Shown: positions 31,076 to 37,244 of the stretch, in pieces
Layout of the letters: each line of letters starts with the position of its first letter
Numbering within the stretch: position 1 is the stretch's first letter
Source: Halobaculum roseum
GTDB lineage: Archaea; Halobacteriota; Halobacteria; Halobacteriales; Haloferacaceae
DNA: 64,000 nucleotides
Assembly: GCF_019880245.1 (NCBI RefSeq)
Contig: NZ_CP082286.1
Span: 1,382,521 to 1,446,520, forward strand
Reading direction: 5' to 3'
Translations under genes and position numbers: made by a program
Notes under the pieces: model-generated
Seen by the model: the letters and a program-made list of their open reading frames with translations, nothing else
Told to the model about the DNA's origin: nothing
Database searches by the model: none

Positions 31076-32299
31076 ATGAACGAGGACGACGGCGGGGGTG
31101 GCGACGGATCGTGGAGTAGACGAGGCGTCCTGACGGCGCTGGGGACCGGTGCCATCGCGGCGGCACTGGGCGAACCGACGGCGGCCGCGGCGTCCGATCC
31201 CGAGCCATCGTACGTCGTCGAGCAGGGGTCGACCTGCGTCCCGGTTCGTCCCGTTCAAGGGTCGGAAACCGCCGAGCAGTTCTACGAGTACCAGCTGCCG
31301 TCGCGATACGTCTCCGAGGAGAACGGCGCGGTCGTCGGCGACGAGGACCGATACAACTCGGCGGGAACGCGCGACCTCCAGCGCGCCGACACCAGCATCC
31401 TCTTGCTGTACGACGGCCCGGAGGGCGTGAGCCTGGTCGTCGTCCACGGCGGCCCGGACAGCCCCGACGGCGGGTCGGCGACGTTCACTTTCGACGGGCT
31501 CCCGACCGGCGGCGAGTGGGTCGTCGCCGACGACCTGTACGACGCCGACTCGAACTACGACCGGTGGAACGTCGACGGCGAGCCCCAGCGTATCGACTGG
31601 ACCTGGGCCGACGGCCGCACCGACGGCGGCGTCTTTCGCCCCCTCGGGGACGACCTCGACGCGACGATCGACCCCGCGTTCAACGAGGCCGCGGAACTGT
31701 TCGGCGTCTACTACGAAGGGCGCGTGACCGACTGGCAACTCCTCTCGGCGACCGACGACGGCGTCGAACGCGTGTCGCTGGCCCTCGACGAGCCGATCCG
31801 TGTGAGGGTCGGCACGTGCGGCTCCGACGGGACGGGCGGCGACGGGGACGACGATGATTCCGACGGCGATGAGGACACGCCGGACGACGACTCCGACGAT
31901 GACGAAGATCGCGAACGTGAGGACGGAGACGATGACGGCGATGACGACGAGGGCGACGAAGAGGAAGCGGACGACGACGAAGACCGCGAACGCGACAATG
32001 AGGACAGCGATGACGACGATGAGGATGAGGACGATGACGAGGACGAAGAGGCAGACGACGTTGGACCGCCGGACGATGCGGGACCACCCGACGACGCCGG
32101 TCCACCGGATGACGCGGGGCCGCCCGACGGAGCAGGACCACCCGAGGATGCCGGACCGCCCGACGGAGCAGGACCACCCGAGGATGCCGGACCGCCCGAG
32201 GATGCTGGACCACCCGACGACGCAGGTCCACCCAACGGCGGGGGACCGCCGGATGACGCCGGTCCCCCCGGTGACGACGATGACGAGGAGGACGACTGA
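31076..32299 (+). CDS. Tat-exported protein with acidic linker and GPP-repeat tail
   Basis: The 407-residue protein has a Tat signal (SRRGVLTALG from about residue 14, cleavage probably after ...PTAAAA near 39). Residues about 45-245 form a folded domain with a conserved-looking N-terminus (YVVEQGSTCVPVRPVQG) and paired blocks such as SLVVVHGGPDSPDGGSATFTFDG. Residues about 250-335 are almost all Asp/Glu with a few Arg. The last 75 residues are 12 GPP triplets, mostly in a six-residue unit DDAGPP or EDAGPP. There is no C-terminal anchor. The tail may be an extended spacer or salt-tolerant stalk. The folded domain is common in haloarchaeal exported proteins but its function is unknown. Confidence 0.75.
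   Translation: MNEDDGGGGDGSWSRRGVLTALGTGAIAAALGEPTAAAASDPEPSYVVEQGSTCVPVRPVQGSETAEQFYEYQLPSRYVSEENGAVVGDEDRYNSAGTRDLQRADTSILLLYDGPEGVSLVVVHGGPDSPDGGSATFTFDGLPTGGEWVVADDLYDADSNYDRWNVDGEPQRIDWTWADGRTDGGVFRPLGDDLDATIDPAFNEAAELFGVYYEGRVTDWQLLSATDDGVERVSLALDEPIRVRVGTCGSDGTGGDGDDDDSDGDEDTPDDDSDDDEDREREDGDDDGDDDEGDEEEADDDEDRERDNEDSDDDDEDEDDDEDEEADDVGPPDDAGPPDDAGPPDDAGPPDGAGPPEDAGPPDGAGPPEDAGPPEDAGPPDDAGPPNGGGPPDDAGPPGDDDDEEDD
32064..32270 (+). repeat. 18-base in-frame tandem repeats encoding DDAGPP units
   Basis: About 11 units of 18 bases encode the GPP-rich tail of the Tat-exported protein. Within them the 36-base block encoding DGAGPPEDAGPP occurs twice in near-identical form (around 32136-32207), evidence of a recent duplication. 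Unit length is a multiple of three, so copy-number change would alter tail length without a frameshift. Confidence 0.85.
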
Positions 32300-32322
32300 A
32301 CACTGAACCCTCTCCGAAACTG

Positions 32323-32350
32323 GAAATGCGGGAGAAGTGGGCCGGCGCGA
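32323..32350. repeat. Left attachment site (attL), 28-bp direct repeat
   Basis: GAAATGCGGGAGAAGTGGGC plus eight more bases (CGGCGCGA) is identical to 37157-37184. Five further bases just left (GAAAC) also match at the same distance with two mismatches between. Only 13 bases of the tRNA 3' end are present here, so this is the copy without a tRNA gene. Confidence 0.9.
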
Positions 32351-32618: not shown

Positions 32619-32939
32619 ATGCGATGGCACGGCGACTGGATGCAGGGACTCGATGAGCGCGTGCTGGAGCGACTCGCCGAGCAGGGAAACGCTCCCGCGA
32701 GGATGATCGCCTCGGATATCGACGAGCCGCGGCTTCGCGTCGCGCGGCTGTGTAAGGTGCTCGCGGAGGCTGAATTCATCGAACGTGAGGAGCGTGAGGG
32801 CTTCGCCGACGAGCGGTATATCACGAGTTGGGGGCTGCTGTATCTGGCAGGCGAGTTGAATGCAGAGCTGCGTCGCCCCGAGCCTGGGATGCGGCCGGGC
32901 GGTCGGATTCGGCCCGGGTGGTACACGGGCTTCAGCTAA
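32619..32939 (+). CDS. Winged-helix DNA-binding protein, phiH1-repressor-like
   Basis: The 106-residue protein has a winged-helix pattern: MRWHGDWMQGLDERVLERLAEQGNAPARMIA, then DEPRLRVARLCKVLAEAEFIERE and a wing-like DERYITSWGLLYLAGEL. This resembles small haloarchaeal and haloviral repressors. It begins 3 bases after the frameshifted relative at 32326-32615, with GGGGAGG about 15 bases before the ATG, and may now be the element's only working repressor. It has host-like high G+C. Its stop (32939) is one base from the stop of the convergent A+T-rich operon. Confidence 0.75.
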   Translation: MRWHGDWMQGLDERVLERLAEQGNAPARMIASDIDEPRLRVARLCKVLAEAEFIEREEREGFADERYITSWGLLYLAGELNAELRRPEPGMRPGGRIRPGWYTGFS

Positions 32940-32940
32940 A

Positions 32941-34089
32941 CTATTCTAGCGCTAATGTTGTTTCCCCAGAGAGGTACTCATCATACCGATTTAGGACCTG
33001 TTCACGGAATTCTTCTCTGATGTCACGACGCCTAGTGGCGCTGAAATCACTCTTGATCCAACCTGATTCTGATTGTAGCTTTGTCTCAGTAATACTCACC
33101 TCAAATGTGACTCTACGTGAGGTCTTGAAGTCAATCTCGACCACGACTCGTCTAGCAACGTCCTTGTGTTCGTACCGAACCTCTACCTGACTCAGATAGA
33201 AACCGTTCTTCTCGCATTTTTGAACAAATTCATTATTATCCAAATTATTCCCTGACAGCGCAGCGTTACGGATACCGTCCAACTCCGCATCTAGATCTTC
33301 ATCCTCTTCATCTTCGCCAACAGTTTCATCTCTCTGTACCTGGACCCCTTCCACGTTCTTACGGGTCCAATTTTCTGTCTCCATCGTCATCAAGTCGCGG
33401 ACGTATGCTACTCTGTTACGGATACCAAGCTCCGTGAGCGAGACAGGATCAGTGCTCACTGGCTCTTTACCAGCGGCTTCGCGTTGTTCATTCCAACCAT
33501 CAAGAAACTCAGTAATTGCAGTTTGCTGATTCACTTTATCATATTCATGAAGAACCGTAGATGTTCCATCCGAGTCGAAATTTTTCACCGTGAATTTTGT
33601 AGATTTTCTTCTACGTGCCAGTCCCTGGAGTTTGCCTCTTTTTTCAACTGTGAATTCCAAGTTGACCTCTAGATCGTCTCCATCCTCAGAAACATCTCTG
33701 ACGTGTACCTTCTTTTCACCATGAGCTGTTGCTTTGCGCTTCTGTTCTCTGAGGTCTGACAACACTTCCCGCTGAGATGACTCAGAATGCCATCTGAATG
33801 CGGACGACTTAGTGGTTGTATCCGATTCCAGTGCCTCTCTCTGGAAGAATTTGAAGCTATCATATCCATAGAATATTCTCCGTGATGCGTCAGCGATTGT
33901 AGATGTGCTATGATTGCACATCAACAAACCTGCTCTACGCTTGTGATGCTCGATGATTGCTTCTCGTGAGAGATAATCATCAATTATTTTCTCAAATTCT
34001 CTATCGGCTGGATACTGCAATTTCTCCATTTTGTCTTTTTTGTCCACGATAGCATCACTGTCGACTGTTGACTGTGAATTCTGACTCAT
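32941..34089 (-). CDS. Third gene of the A+T-rich cassette, unknown function
   Basis: The 382-residue protein is hydrophilic, without a signal or membrane helix. The N-terminal third (residues 1 to about 130) is helical and charged, with an REAIIEHHKRRAGLL segment and SRRIFYGYDSFKFFQREAL. A middle beta-rich part (about 130-190) contains EVNLEFTVEKRGKLQGLARRR and KFTVKNFDSDG. An acidic hinge (about 265-280, DEEDEDLD) precedes a second beta-rich part ending near VVVEIDFKTSRRVTFEVSITETK. I recognise no family. Its ATG overlaps the stop of the nuclease-like gene by one base (TAATG), so the two are coupled. Base and codon use are unlike the host, with many AT-ending codons: signs of transfer. Confidence 0.75.
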   Translation of the reverse strand: MSQNSQSTVDSDAIVDKKDKMEKLQYPADREFEKIIDDYLSREAIIEHHKRRAGLLMCNHSTSTIADASRRIFYGYDSFKFFQREALESDTTTKSSAFRWHSESSQREVLSDLREQKRKATAHGEKKVHVRDVSEDGDDLEVNLEFTVEKRGKLQGLARRRKSTKFTVKNFDSDGTSTVLHEYDKVNQQTAITEFLDGWNEQREAAGKEPVSTDPVSLTELGIRNRVAYVRDLMTMETENWTRKNVEGVQVQRDETVGEDEEDEDLDAELDGIRNAALSGNNLDNNEFVQKCEKNGFYLSQVEVRYEHKDVARRVVVEIDFKTSRRVTFEVSITETKLQSESGWIKSDFSATRRRDIREEFREQVLNRYDEYLSGETTLALE

Positions 34090-34985
34090 TATCGGTTGTC
34101 AAGGTGGTTCAAGTCTGCCATTGTCTGGAGCGTCTTGAATTCAATATCCGTATTTGCGTCTTCATCAGAGAACGTCCGAACAAATTCTTCTTCGACAGGT
34201 TCTGTGTGATGTCCACGGTCGGGGACGAAGATCTCGATCCTCTCGTGGTTCGACAGTAGCTGATAATGTCTTAATGATTTGTACATGAAGAGTAAGGAGT
34301 CAAAATCCATCTCACCAAAGTAGAATACAAAGCCAACATCCGAGCGTTCACCACTTGTGAGGAATATGAAATCAGATAGCAAATAGTCCATTGTCGCAAG
34401 ATCATACATACCTCCATCTGTGTCAGTCAAATCCGGGTAATAGAATTGTATATTGTCGTAATCCTTACTCAGTCTGTGGTATTGATCTTCTATACCAGCA
34501 ATTCGTTGTAATTGGTCATTCCCCCAAATAACGATCTTTGACAGATCCCAATTTTTCTTCACATCAAGTGATTGAACATACTGGTGGAACTCATCAGGTT
34601 CAAATCCATCAGTCGCCCAGAGAGCAACAATACCTGTATTAGTTATATCTGCTTCATTAGAGATATTGTGTGTTTCTTCGAAATACTCTGATTTGGGAGC
34701 TTTATCGACTTTTTCTAACAGAGTTTCAAAGAAACCTTCCACCTTCGATCTACTCACACTATCCCATTTCCACGACTTGGACTCGATTATGTTTCCGTGG
34801 ATATGTGGAGTGTAAGGATGTTTATATGTTAGATATGCGTCCAGGCCATACCCGTGCTTCCGGTCTTCGTCATCGACCTGAGCATCCACGTCAGTCTTGC
34901 TTTTTAGTGTCCATCCAAGTCCTTGGAATAGTTTGACTATTCTCTCAGTGGCTCGGTCACCCTTTCGGTTAGCATCTTCAGGCAT
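34089..34985 (-). CDS. PD-(D/E)xK nuclease-like protein, second gene of the A+T-rich cassette
   Basis: The 298-residue protein has the residue order of a PD-(D/E)xK nuclease core near its N-terminus: Glu14 in the first helix (RATERIVKLFQGLGW), Asp49 in GYGLDAYLTY, and Glu68-Ser-Lys70 in GNIIESKSW, followed by a helix (VSRSKVEGFFETLLEKV). This fold is used by restriction and many anti-phage nucleases. The rest (about 110-298) shows alternating strands and helices with no known motif (VALWATDGFEPDEF, KIVIWGNDQLQRI, FIFLTSGERSDVGFVFYFGE). It overlaps the upstream gene by 8 bases and the downstream gene by one. The ATG at 34985 is preferred to an in-frame earlier start (MIFFLRWL) that lies inside the upstream gene. 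Nuclease activity is inferred from motif spacing only. Confidence 0.7.
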   Translation of the reverse strand: MPEDANRKGDRATERIVKLFQGLGWTLKSKTDVDAQVDDEDRKHGYGLDAYLTYKHPYTPHIHGNIIESKSWKWDSVSRSKVEGFFETLLEKVDKAPKSEYFEETHNISNEADITNTGIVALWATDGFEPDEFHQYVQSLDVKKNWDLSKIVIWGNDQLQRIAGIEDQYHRLSKDYDNIQFYYPDLTDTDGGMYDLATMDYLLSDFIFLTSGERSDVGFVFYFGEMDFDSLLFMYKSLRHYQLLSNHERIEIFVPDRGHHTEPVEEEFVRTFSDEDANTDIEFKTLQTMADLNHLDNR

Positions 34986-35688
34986 CGGCAACCACCTCAG
35001 AAAGAAGATCACGAATCAGCGGTAGAAGTTCAGAGTCACGAGAGCTGTTGGAAAACAGTCTAACTGAGCCACTTCTGTAAATTCCTACTGTAACCTCTTC
35101 GTCAGGTGCCAAATTAATATTCAAACAGATATATGACACGTCTCCTTCGTATCTTGAGACCAGTTCCGATGCAACTTGATTGGTATAAGTTTCCAAATAG
35201 CAGTTGCCACTCGTTTGGGGCTCGGGTGAGATGTTGTTTATTCTGAGGGCACTCACATCGATCTCGTGGGGGGAGCGCCGTGATACCTCAAGTATTTGAT
35301 CAATATCGAGATTGAGGCTTTGGCTAACAAATTGAGGAACAACTTGGCCAAGTCGGTTTAGCAGCTCGCTATTCCCGTCTCGGTCTGTGTAACCCTCAAG
35401 AAATCCATTCTGTAAGTCAATTCGAAACGGAACTCGATCCGCGGTGGTTACGTTATCCTCTGTTGGCTCTCCAGTCTCAGGGTCTATTCTGGTTATTGAG
35501 GTATATGAATTCGATATGAGGACTCCCTCGACAGATCCCTCATTACGCCGAACTTGCCTGAATCCAAACGTCGAATTCTCAGAGTAGCTATTACTCCGAA
35601 GTTTGGATACTAAGGCTTCCTGTGGGGGGCATTCAATCCTACTCACGTTTATCGTGGCAGGTGTTTCAGCTATTTCTCCGTCAGGCAT
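34978..35688 (-). CDS. First gene of the A+T-rich cassette, unknown function
   Basis: The 236-residue protein (ATG 35688) looks soluble and beta-rich in its first half (ATINVSRIECPP, SVEGVLISNSYTSITRIDPETGEP, VPFRIDLQNGFLEGYTD) and helical in the middle (ELLNRLGQVVPQFVSQSLNLDIDQIL). The C-terminal third again alternates strands (DVSYICLNINLAPDEEVTVGIYRSGSVRLF) and ends with a helix. I recognise no family or catalytic motif. A TTG start at 35715 would add nine residues; ATG is preferred since TTG puts the start very close to the TATA element. It leads the cassette and overlaps the nuclease-like gene by 8 bases. Confidence 0.7.
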   Translation of the reverse strand: MPDGEIAETPATINVSRIECPPQEALVSKLRSNSYSENSTFGFRQVRRNEGSVEGVLISNSYTSITRIDPETGEPTEDNVTTADRVPFRIDLQNGFLEGYTDRDGNSELLNRLGQVVPQFVSQSLNLDIDQILEVSRRSPHEIDVSALRINNISPEPQTSGNCYLETYTNQVASELVSRYEGDVSYICLNINLAPDEEVTVGIYRSGSVRLFSNSSRDSELLPLIRDLLSEVVADA

Positions 35689-35879: not shown

Positions 35880-36343
35880 TCACCACAATTCCTCTGCTTC
35901 CGCATCTAACTGCGTCCCGGCGTACTGCAAGTAGTCATTCGCACTCGACAGGTCCGCGTGCCCCATCGTCTGCCGGATATACTGCGGCGTCGCACCCCGT
36001 GCGGCAATGAGCGTCCCGTAGGTGTGACGGAGCACGTGTGGCGTGATCTTCTTCCGGAGGTCCGTCTCGGCCGCCACGCGCTTCACTCGATTCGTCACTG
36101 TCTGCCTTGTCGCCCCATACTCGGCGTGATACCCGAAGTAATCCCGGAGCCGCCGCAGTGTTCCGGGGTGCTTCACCGGGATCGTCCGCGCGGCGTGCTC
36201 GGTCTTCGACGTCCAGTCTCCCTCGACGGCCGGCACGCGCAGCAGCTCGTTCTGCCAGTCCATCCAGTCGTCGGTCATGTACGCTAGCTCGTCGGCACCG
36301 ATCCCGCTGTGTGCGAGCGTGTAGAGGTAGTTCAGTAGGGTTC
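35880..36343 (-). pseudogene. Tyrosine recombinase (integrase) remnant
   Basis: The C-terminal catalytic domain of a tyrosine recombinase is readable from about codon LNYLYTLAHSG (near 36340) to the stop at 35880. The box HVLRHTYGTLIA, MGHADLSS and the tyrosine in ANDYLQYAG are present. The first catalytic Arg, expected in a TGLRADEL-type motif, is replaced: the sequence is SGIGADELAYM. The N-terminal core-binding domain is missing, and recognisable homology starts right where the vapC stop codon lies, so vapBC replaced the 5' part. The only ATG start (36278) gives 132 residues. It cannot be expected to recombine. Confidence 0.8.
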
Positions 36344-36718
36344 GACGGGCACGCCGTGGCGTTCGAAGTCGTCGACGTTCCGCGTAACGACCGCCTCGCC
36401 TTCCACGTCGGCGGTTGCCGCGATCACCGCGTCACCCTTCTTGCGCTTGTACGTCGAGGGGTCCAGGCGGCCGATCATCCGCCCCGCTTCCTCGGCGATC
36501 TGCGGGTCCATCGCTACCCGTGGGACGCCGTCCAGAATTCGACGTATCTCGCGCGCTTCCTCTTCTCCGGTGTACGCTTCGATGCCGATGTACAGCTCCA
36601 GCACCGTCATCGTGGAGAGCTTCAACACGGCACCGTTCGCCTCCAACTCGTCCAGTTTCTCGTGTGCCGCCGGGAGATCGGCCATCAGGTCGAGCACGAA
36701 CGCGGTATCGAGGATCAT
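36332..36718 (-). CDS. vapC: VapC toxin, PIN-domain ribonuclease
   Basis: The 128-residue PIN-domain protein keeps the acidic active-site set: Asp4 (MILDTAFVLD), Glu41 (TMTVLELYIG), Asp near 95 (KKGDAVIAATA) and Asp near 115 (TRNVDDFERHG). It should cut a structured RNA, usually tRNA or rRNA, when freed from VapB. Its start overlaps the vapB stop by 4 bases, standard for the pair. The 3' end abuts the integrase remnant directly. It may stabilise the element or be an independent acquisition. Confidence 0.92.
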   Translation of the reverse strand: MILDTAFVLDLMADLPAAHEKLDELEANGAVLKLSTMTVLELYIGIEAYTGEEEAREIRRILDGVPRVAMDPQIAEEAGRMIGRLDPSTYKRKKGDAVIAATADVEGEAVVTRNVDDFERHGVPVEPY

Positions 36719-36948
36719 TCGAAGCGCTCGGCGATTTCTTCGACCTCCTCGGCGTCGTCGTCCTCGGCCGCCTCGATGGTCTCGCGCATCGTCTCGACCG
36801 TCTCGCTATCGAGGATTCCCCCGAGGTCCCGCAGCGACGGCCCGCCGATCAGGCGCTCGATAGCCTCCGAAAAGGTTTCGTCGTCCCGTTTGTGGGCCTT
36901 GATCCGGTTGTACACGTCCTCATCCAGCCGAACTGGTTTCGTACTCAT
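36715..36948 (-). CDS. vapB: VapB antitoxin
   Basis: The 77-residue antitoxin has an N-terminal ribbon-helix-helix part, KPVRLDEDVYNRIKAHKRDDETFSEAIERL, and a C-terminal acidic tail that would wrap VapC (ETVETMRETIEAAEDDDAEEVEEIAERFE). The protein pairs with the following vapC by a 4-base overlap. A perfect palindrome sits two bases before its ATG and probably is its own operator. Closely similar in layout to the second pair at 58718-58951. Confidence 0.92.
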   Translation of the reverse strand: MSTKPVRLDEDVYNRIKAHKRDDETFSEAIERLIGGPSLRDLGGILDSETVETMRETIEAAEDDDAEEVEEIAERFE

Positions 36949-36966: not shown

Positions 36967-37156
36967 AGCGCGTTTGAATCTTCTGCCGGATCGGAGGGAC
37001 CCGGCTCGAGGAGCTCTCCGGCCGTTCGTCTACTCAGCCGGCGGACTGCTACAGTTCGCTTTGTCTACCACTCACGACGAACTCGTCCGACGAGACACCA
37101 GCCGGTACCTGAACCATACGACGCTGGAGAACCTACCAGGTACGCTCCTGAAACGC

Positions 37157-37184
37157 GAAATGCGGGAGAAGTGGGCCGGCGCGA
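37157..37184. repeat. Right attachment site (attR), 28-bp direct repeat
   Basis: The sequence is identical to 32323-32350. The last 13 bases (37172-37184) are the 3' end of the tRNA-Pro gene, i.e. its acceptor strand and part of the T stem. This is the copy attached to the intact tRNA gene, so the left junction lacks one. Confidence 0.9.
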
Positions 37185-37244
37185 ATTTGAATCGCGGTTA
37201 CGGCCACCCGAAGGCCGAAGGATACCAAGCTACCCCACCGGCCC
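37172..37244 (-). tRNA. tRNA-Pro (anticodon CGG)
   Basis: Reading the minus strand, 73 bases fold into a cloverleaf. The acceptor is GGGCCGG paired with CCGGCCC plus discriminator A. The D-arm is GGGT...ATCC with a GGT in the loop. The anticodon stem CGGCC/GGCCG has loop TTCGGGT, anticodon CGG. The T-arm is CGCGA/TCGCG with loop TTCAAAT. CCA is not encoded. The 3' end carries the attachment core of the integrated element. Confidence 0.93.

Follow-up and report, generated by a model that had tools for sequence, protein, structure and literature searches.

The 3HP system is known from the P2 prophage hotspot (Rousset et al. 2022, PMC9122126), and it protected Escherichia coli against phage P1 when cloned alone (PMC9122126). 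Its three genes were said to have "no clear predicted domain", and a table published in 2024 enters its mechanism as unknown (PMC10855318). A literature search returned no reported mechanism for 3HP. Also relevant here is RdgC, a DNA-encircling protein whose fold is akin to those of lambda RexA and kinetochore Iml3. According to the RexA structure paper, RdgC, RexA and Iml3/Chl4 share one DNA-binding fold, RexA is a phage exclusion protein that binds DNA, RdgC reduces the activity of RecA, and RexA has an effect on prophage induction (PMC11077077).

The window analyzed here, a stretch of 64,000 nucleotides from Halobaculum roseum (contig NZ_CP082286.1), bears three genes on its minus strand in the order A, B, C: gene A of 236 residues (34978-35688), gene B of 298 residues (34089-34985) and gene C of 382 residues (32941-34089), with overlaps of 8 bp (A/B) and 1 bp (B/C). 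These open reading frames agree with an earlier first-pass annotation of the same DNA, and so does their composition, which was said to be unlike that of the host: the G+C content is 46% in gene A, 42% in gene B and 45% in gene C versus 69% in the whole window, and it is 35% in each of the sequence lines starting at 33961 and 34441. The A+T-rich stretch TAATTAATTATTA, located about 45 nt upstream of gene A, is a plausible TATA element.

Homology of the Trio to 3HP

Scans of the three window proteins against Pfam, NCBIfam and PADLOC gave nothing convincing (the PADLOC scan, a check proposed in the first-pass annotation, returned no match), and PDB sequence searches gave chance matches only. In PHROGs, the window proteins match phrog_7059 (2.9e-13) and phrog_6531 (2.4e-8), both of which are phage families without a function. 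With tblastn, the trio turned up on haloarchaeal plasmids, on a gut contig (Bacteroidota-like) and in a Pf filamentous phage. Searches starting from the Pf copy led to further copies in P2-like prophages, in a Vibrio phage and on plasmids from several Proteobacteria and Campylobacterota. In one Vibrio phage record the depositor labels the genes Rst_3HP Hp1, Hp2 and Hp3. The PADLOC models for Hp1, Hp2 and Hp3 match the E. coli copy over its full length and also give clear matches to the Vibrio copy and the second Pf copy; the E. coli copy is located between a portal gene and a replication gene (gpA), that is, in the P2-type hotspot.

Profile-profile comparison of alignments of 5 haloarchaeal and 9 bacterial members pairs gene B with bacterial Hp1 (99.2%, E = 7.6e-20, 308 columns), gene C with bacterial Hp2 (98.2%, E = 3.7e-14, 310 columns) and gene A with bacterial Hp3 (98.8%, E = 1e-16, 206 columns), and hhalign detected no homology among Hp1, Hp2 and Hp3 themselves. 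Homologs of all three components are thus co-localized in the window, adjacent, overlapping and on the same strand. Gene order was treated as not defining 3HP, because the DefenseFinder paper presents its models as lists of mandatory proteins. Judged by these profile comparisons, the trio is a distant homolog of 3HP.

Like 3HP (Rst_3HP, PADLOC PDLC03004-3006), the trio consists of three homologous, similar-sized proteins in one operon, and carriage by prophages, plasmids and integrative elements is a further likeness. It differs from 3HP in gene order (Hp3-Hp1-Hp2 versus Hp1-Hp2-Hp3), in its catalytic motif (E-x-K versus the usual D-x-K) and in having an archaeal rather than a bacterial host; its proteins go undetected by PADLOC, and identity is at most 22-36% within the archaeal and Bacteroidota set. 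None of the three PADLOC models detects the Halolamina, Bacteroidota-like or window proteins. The Hp1 model finds a haloarchaeal relative, a Natronorubrum protein, over nearly its full length (3.1e-6), and the Hp2 and Hp3 models miss the Natronorubrum relative. The three models look narrow; their lengths equal those of one E. coli-type sequence set, which they match full length. Because the models miss nearly all of its tested proteins, the archaeal/Bacteroidota branch is nearly invisible to PADLOC.

Distribution, Gene Order and Neighbors

Gene neighborhoods, another check that the first-pass annotation had proposed, were compared at 107 loci, some of which repeat one place, leaving about 95 distinct loci at which the trio is conserved together. 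All three genes lie on one strand in 98 of the 107, the remaining loci being mostly cut by contig ends or carrying a diverged Hp2. Among these 98 complete loci, 73 have the order Hp1-Hp2-Hp3 and 25 have Hp3-Hp1-Hp2. Its recurrence as a block in many unrelated genomes and phages puts the trio far beyond chance. The three genes are co-inherited, with pairwise identities that correlate between genes (rho = 0.67-0.88, uncorrected for shared ancestry). In a midpoint-rooted tree of 54 non-redundant members, the archaea and the Bacteroidota-like member are separated from the Proteobacteria with full support, and the two clades coincide with the two gene orders, Hp1-Hp2-Hp3 in Proteobacteria and Hp3-Hp1-Hp2 in archaea/Bacteroidota. 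This archaeal and Bacteroidota-like branch of 3HP, with its permuted gene order, is new. Of 391 genomes from the host's class, 8 have the family, which also occurs in three genomes from other families within the phylum.

Archaeal copies adjoin an ApeA-like HEPN gene, an Mrr endonuclease, a DNA methylase or an integrase; the ApeA-like HEPN gene (PADLOC PDC-S58) adjoins an archaeal 3HP at locus L117:9794-11152. On an Aliarcobacter plasmid, a Septu-like pair of ATPase and HNH genes (PADLOC PDC-M01A/B) is located beside 3HP (L015:2625-5412). Two Pseudomonas Pf filamentous phages (L005 and L010) bear 3HP at their accessory end, and Hp3 of the latter is annotated as "RdgC-like exonuclease". No archaeal copy borne by a virus came up when viral contigs were scanned with the archaeal Hp1 alignment.

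The Carrying Element

The trio is located within a 4.83-kb insert flanked by 35-bp direct repeats that are identical at 33 of 35 positions. One repeat (37150-37184, plus strand), supported by repeat search, tRNA call and sister-genome comparison, lies at the 3' end of a tRNA-Pro (CGG) gene (37171-37244, minus strand, called by ARAGORN), the intact integration target. The other (32316-32350, plus strand), found by repeat search and present as a single copy in the sister genome, is the distal attachment-site copy. In the closest sister genome, that of a sister species, the flanks join at one repeat copy and the segment is absent. The repeats at the tRNA 3' end and the empty site in a relative identify an integrative element at a tRNA gene. 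Because the segment holds the trio, a VapBC pair, part of an integrase and a helix-turn-helix ORF together with the repeats, and the sister site is empty, the trio is cargo on an integrated element, as the first-pass annotation had proposed.

The integrase is a tyrosine integrase of which the C-terminal half alone is left (35880-36278, minus strand; Pfam Phage_integrase positions 103-167 of 172, E = 3.4e-12), and its frame runs on upstream without any N-terminal half. The intact integrase of a self-mobile element is therefore missing from the segment. Since the integrase keeps its C-terminal half only, the element is probably a former or trans-mobilized one, whose own movement is no longer possible. 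The VapBC pair (36332-36948) directly adjoins the integrase gene on its truncated 5' side, which suggests that recombination removed the N-terminal half.

Regulators and a toxin-antitoxin pair had been named as neighbors of the trio. The pair stands by Pfam matches, as a VapC-type PIN toxin (36332-36718, minus strand; PF01850, E = 8e-14) and a VapB-type antitoxin (36715-36948, minus strand; PF02697, E = 2.7e-11). The regulator comes down to a small helix-turn-helix ORF (32619-32939, plus strand) with weak TrmB/IclR matches below the Pfam cut-off, and its end is 2 bp away from the gene C stop codon. This ORF is G+C-rich and convergent with the trio, whose A+T-rich DNA runs up to the Hp2 stop codon (32937-32943). 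Outside the segment, an ORF with an 18-nt tandem repeat (GPPDDA-like; 31076-32299) directly adjoins the distal attachment-site copy, and the sister genome aligns less well over this ORF.

The Predicted Nuclease Hp1

Hp1 comprises an N-terminal nuclease domain (residues 1-155; 34521-34985, minus strand), marked by conserved E3, D49, E68 and K70 and by its core fold, and a C-terminal domain (residues 156-298; 34092-34520, minus strand), supported by a VIA-align match to chain E of the ASFV RNA polymerase. Glu14, Asp49 and Glu68-x-Lys70 had been put forward as residues spaced as in PD-(D/E)xK nucleases. Asp49 and Glu68-x-Lys70 (K70 codon at 34776-34778) are conserved: E3, D49 and K70 are invariant in all 54 non-redundant diverse homologs, and position 68 is D or E in all 54. 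Glu14 is not conserved, and we rejected it as a catalytic residue; most relatives have K, L, I and others at this position, and the invariant N-terminal acid is Glu3 instead.

The AlphaFold model of Hp1 (pLDDT 86, from 39 homologs) shows a helix-strands-helix-strand core, with strands at residues 50-55 and 62-72 that carry the D...(D/E)-x-K motif as expected. In VIA-align, residues 1-155 match AF1548 (Z = 10.3 over 116 residues, 2.7 A), XisH (Z = 8-9) and Card1, Cdn1, HamA and FokI (Z = 7-8), and the matches include Card1/Can2, HamA of Hachiman and SduA of Shedu. Foldseek alone gave no significant match of Hp1 in the PDB (best E = 0.018), and its list also holds restriction enzymes. Both the motif and the core fold of the PD-(D/E)xK superfamily are thus present in Hp1, and the nuclease core expected for the middle protein is borne out by the model. 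By its predicted fold and conserved active site, Hp1 is a PD-(D/E)xK nuclease, presumably a metal-dependent one. The core fold and the catalytic triad are shared with Card1/Can2, HamA and SduA; in contrast to these proteins, Hp1 comes without a CARF or helicase partner, has a C-terminal domain of its own and is accompanied by two other proteins. Residues 159-289 in the C-terminal domain match chain E of the ASFV RNA polymerase in VIA-align (Z about 10, Foldseek support weak), and the domain resembles both EcoT38I and the N-terminal jaw domain of Rpb5. It has no ExK motif and is likely to be non-catalytic.

Hp3 and Hp2

For Hp3, the E. coli-type protein was modeled with a pLDDT of 97. Two programs gave RdgC as the top PDB match of this bacterial Hp3 model, with Z = 11.5 (211 residues, rmsd 4.9, full-length alignment) for RdgC 2owl and a Foldseek E value of 5.5e-7 (probability 1.0) for RdgC 2owy. 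Yeast Iml3 and human CENP-L follow RdgC, lambda RexA comes lower in the list, and a search of a viral library with the same model returned proteins annotated as recombination-associated. The predicted fold of a bacterial Hp3 is thus like that of RdgC, lambda RexA and yeast Iml3-Chl4 (CENP-L/CENP-N). It differs from RdgC in being about 70 residues shorter, in lacking detectable sequence similarity and in having a fixed genomic partner nuclease. Membership of the RdgC family by sequence was ruled out by the absence of a match to the RdgC Pfam profile among 41 Hp3 members and by an hhalign comparison of Hp3 with seven RdgC sequences that was not significant, and we do not file Hp3 as RdgC. By homology to the modeled E. 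coli-type relative, we infer an RdgC/RexA-type fold for the window Hp3. The RdgC-type assignment of Hp3 and the nuclease assignment of Hp1, both based on predicted models, are new for 3HP.

Other haloarchaeal Hp2 proteins usually end in a helix-hairpin-helix (HhH) domain (HHH_5, E down to 1.9e-11). The window Hp2 stops before this tail, as do bacterial Hp2 proteins, and the tail of its relatives may have been lost at the junction 32937-32943. The N-termini of bacterial Hp2 match DUF4518 (best 1.5e-5 among nine members; 17.3 bits, below the cut-off of 27, where inspected). Any likeness of Hp2 to SAP-like or CENP-N-like parts is pure conjecture. The suggestion that the two outer proteins could sense or guide becomes more specific with these results: it now reads as an RdgC/RexA-type fold for Hp3 (from the bacterial model) and an HhH domain that is usual in haloarchaeal Hp2, and absent from the window copy.

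Discussion

The best reading of the cassette is an archaeal variant of a DNA-clamp-plus-nuclease defense system, and we consider it fairly probable that it is an archaeal 3HP anti-phage member on a tRNA-integrated element, in which Hp3, perhaps with Hp2, binds DNA and Hp1 cuts it. Hp3, being of the RdgC/RexA type, would bind and probably embrace invading or replicating viral DNA; Hp2, which in many relatives has additional DNA-binding modules, would serve as a partner or adaptor; and Hp1 would cut DNA marked in this way, or the host's own DNA as part of an abortive response. We infer defense activity in this archaeon, the formation of a complex, the DNA target and the order of events. Neighbors of archaeal relatives such as ApeA and an Mrr endonuclease speak for this reading; the silence of the PADLOC models on the window proteins, the changed gene order, the lack of a sequence match to RdgC and the lack of a significant Foldseek match of Hp1 in the PDB speak against it. 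The first-pass proposal of a candidate defense system gains from the homology to 3HP, the conservation of the trio and its carriage as mobile cargo. A more far-reaching version can be held only tentatively, as rather unlikely in full: 3HP would be a DNA-clamp-licensed nuclease, in which a ring or horseshoe of Hp3 and Hp2 on viral DNA precedes activation of Hp1, and the archaeal/Bacteroidota clade would be a large undetected branch. By analogy, such a ring or horseshoe would be like the RdgC dimers or the kinetochore Iml3-Chl4 (CENP-L-CENP-N) heterodimer.

Several other explanations have to be weighed. The cassette had been called undescribed, with no protein matching a family, and the missing Pfam, NCBIfam and PADLOC matches of the window proteins would fit a defense family unrelated to known systems. 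This is highly improbable, being contradicted by the significant profile-profile homology of all three proteins to components of 3HP, a system validated against P1 in E. coli (PMC9122126), and by the haloarchaeal relative that the PADLOC Hp1 model detects. The window copy could instead be decaying, because its Hp2 lacks the HhH tail and the integrase is truncated; it would then be a homolog of 3HP that no longer functions here, a remnant stranded on an element with a broken integrase, and the A+T-rich DNA that ends at the Hp2 stop codon points the same way. However, the three frames are intact and overlapping, the catalytic residues are kept, and bacterial Hp2 likewise has no HhH tail, which makes this loss of function somewhat unlikely.

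The RdgC fold of the bacterial Hp3 could also point to another role for the trio, as an exclusion or recombination-control module in the manner of RexA/RdgC that benefits the element, rather than as a dedicated antiviral nuclease. Hp3 and Hp2 would then act on recombination or replication intermediates, such as RecA/RadA filaments, and Hp1 would trim them. The reduction of RecA activity by RdgC, the effect of RexA on prophage induction and the occurrence of the system mainly in prophages and mobile elements (also in the DefenseFinder survey) are consistent with such a role. We nevertheless regard it as unlikely: a clone of 3HP by itself shielded E. coli from P1 (PMC9122126), the conservation of the active site suggests an active nuclease, and archaeal copies adjoin other defense genes. 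It is less likely still that plasmids or other mobile elements, not viruses, are the target. Homologs do occur on plasmids and conjugative elements, but the known activity is against phage P1, although P1 itself is a plasmid-prophage.

Under the preferred reading of an anti-phage system, the predicted parts list, with a nuclease (Hp1) and an RdgC/RexA-type DNA binder (Hp3), makes the mechanism of 3HP directly testable. The range of 3HP is widened to archaea and Bacteroidota, where the tested profile models mostly miss the system. Moreover, one DNA-binding fold, as predicted for Hp3, would tie together phage exclusion, as by RexA, recombination control, as by RdgC, and nuclease defense.
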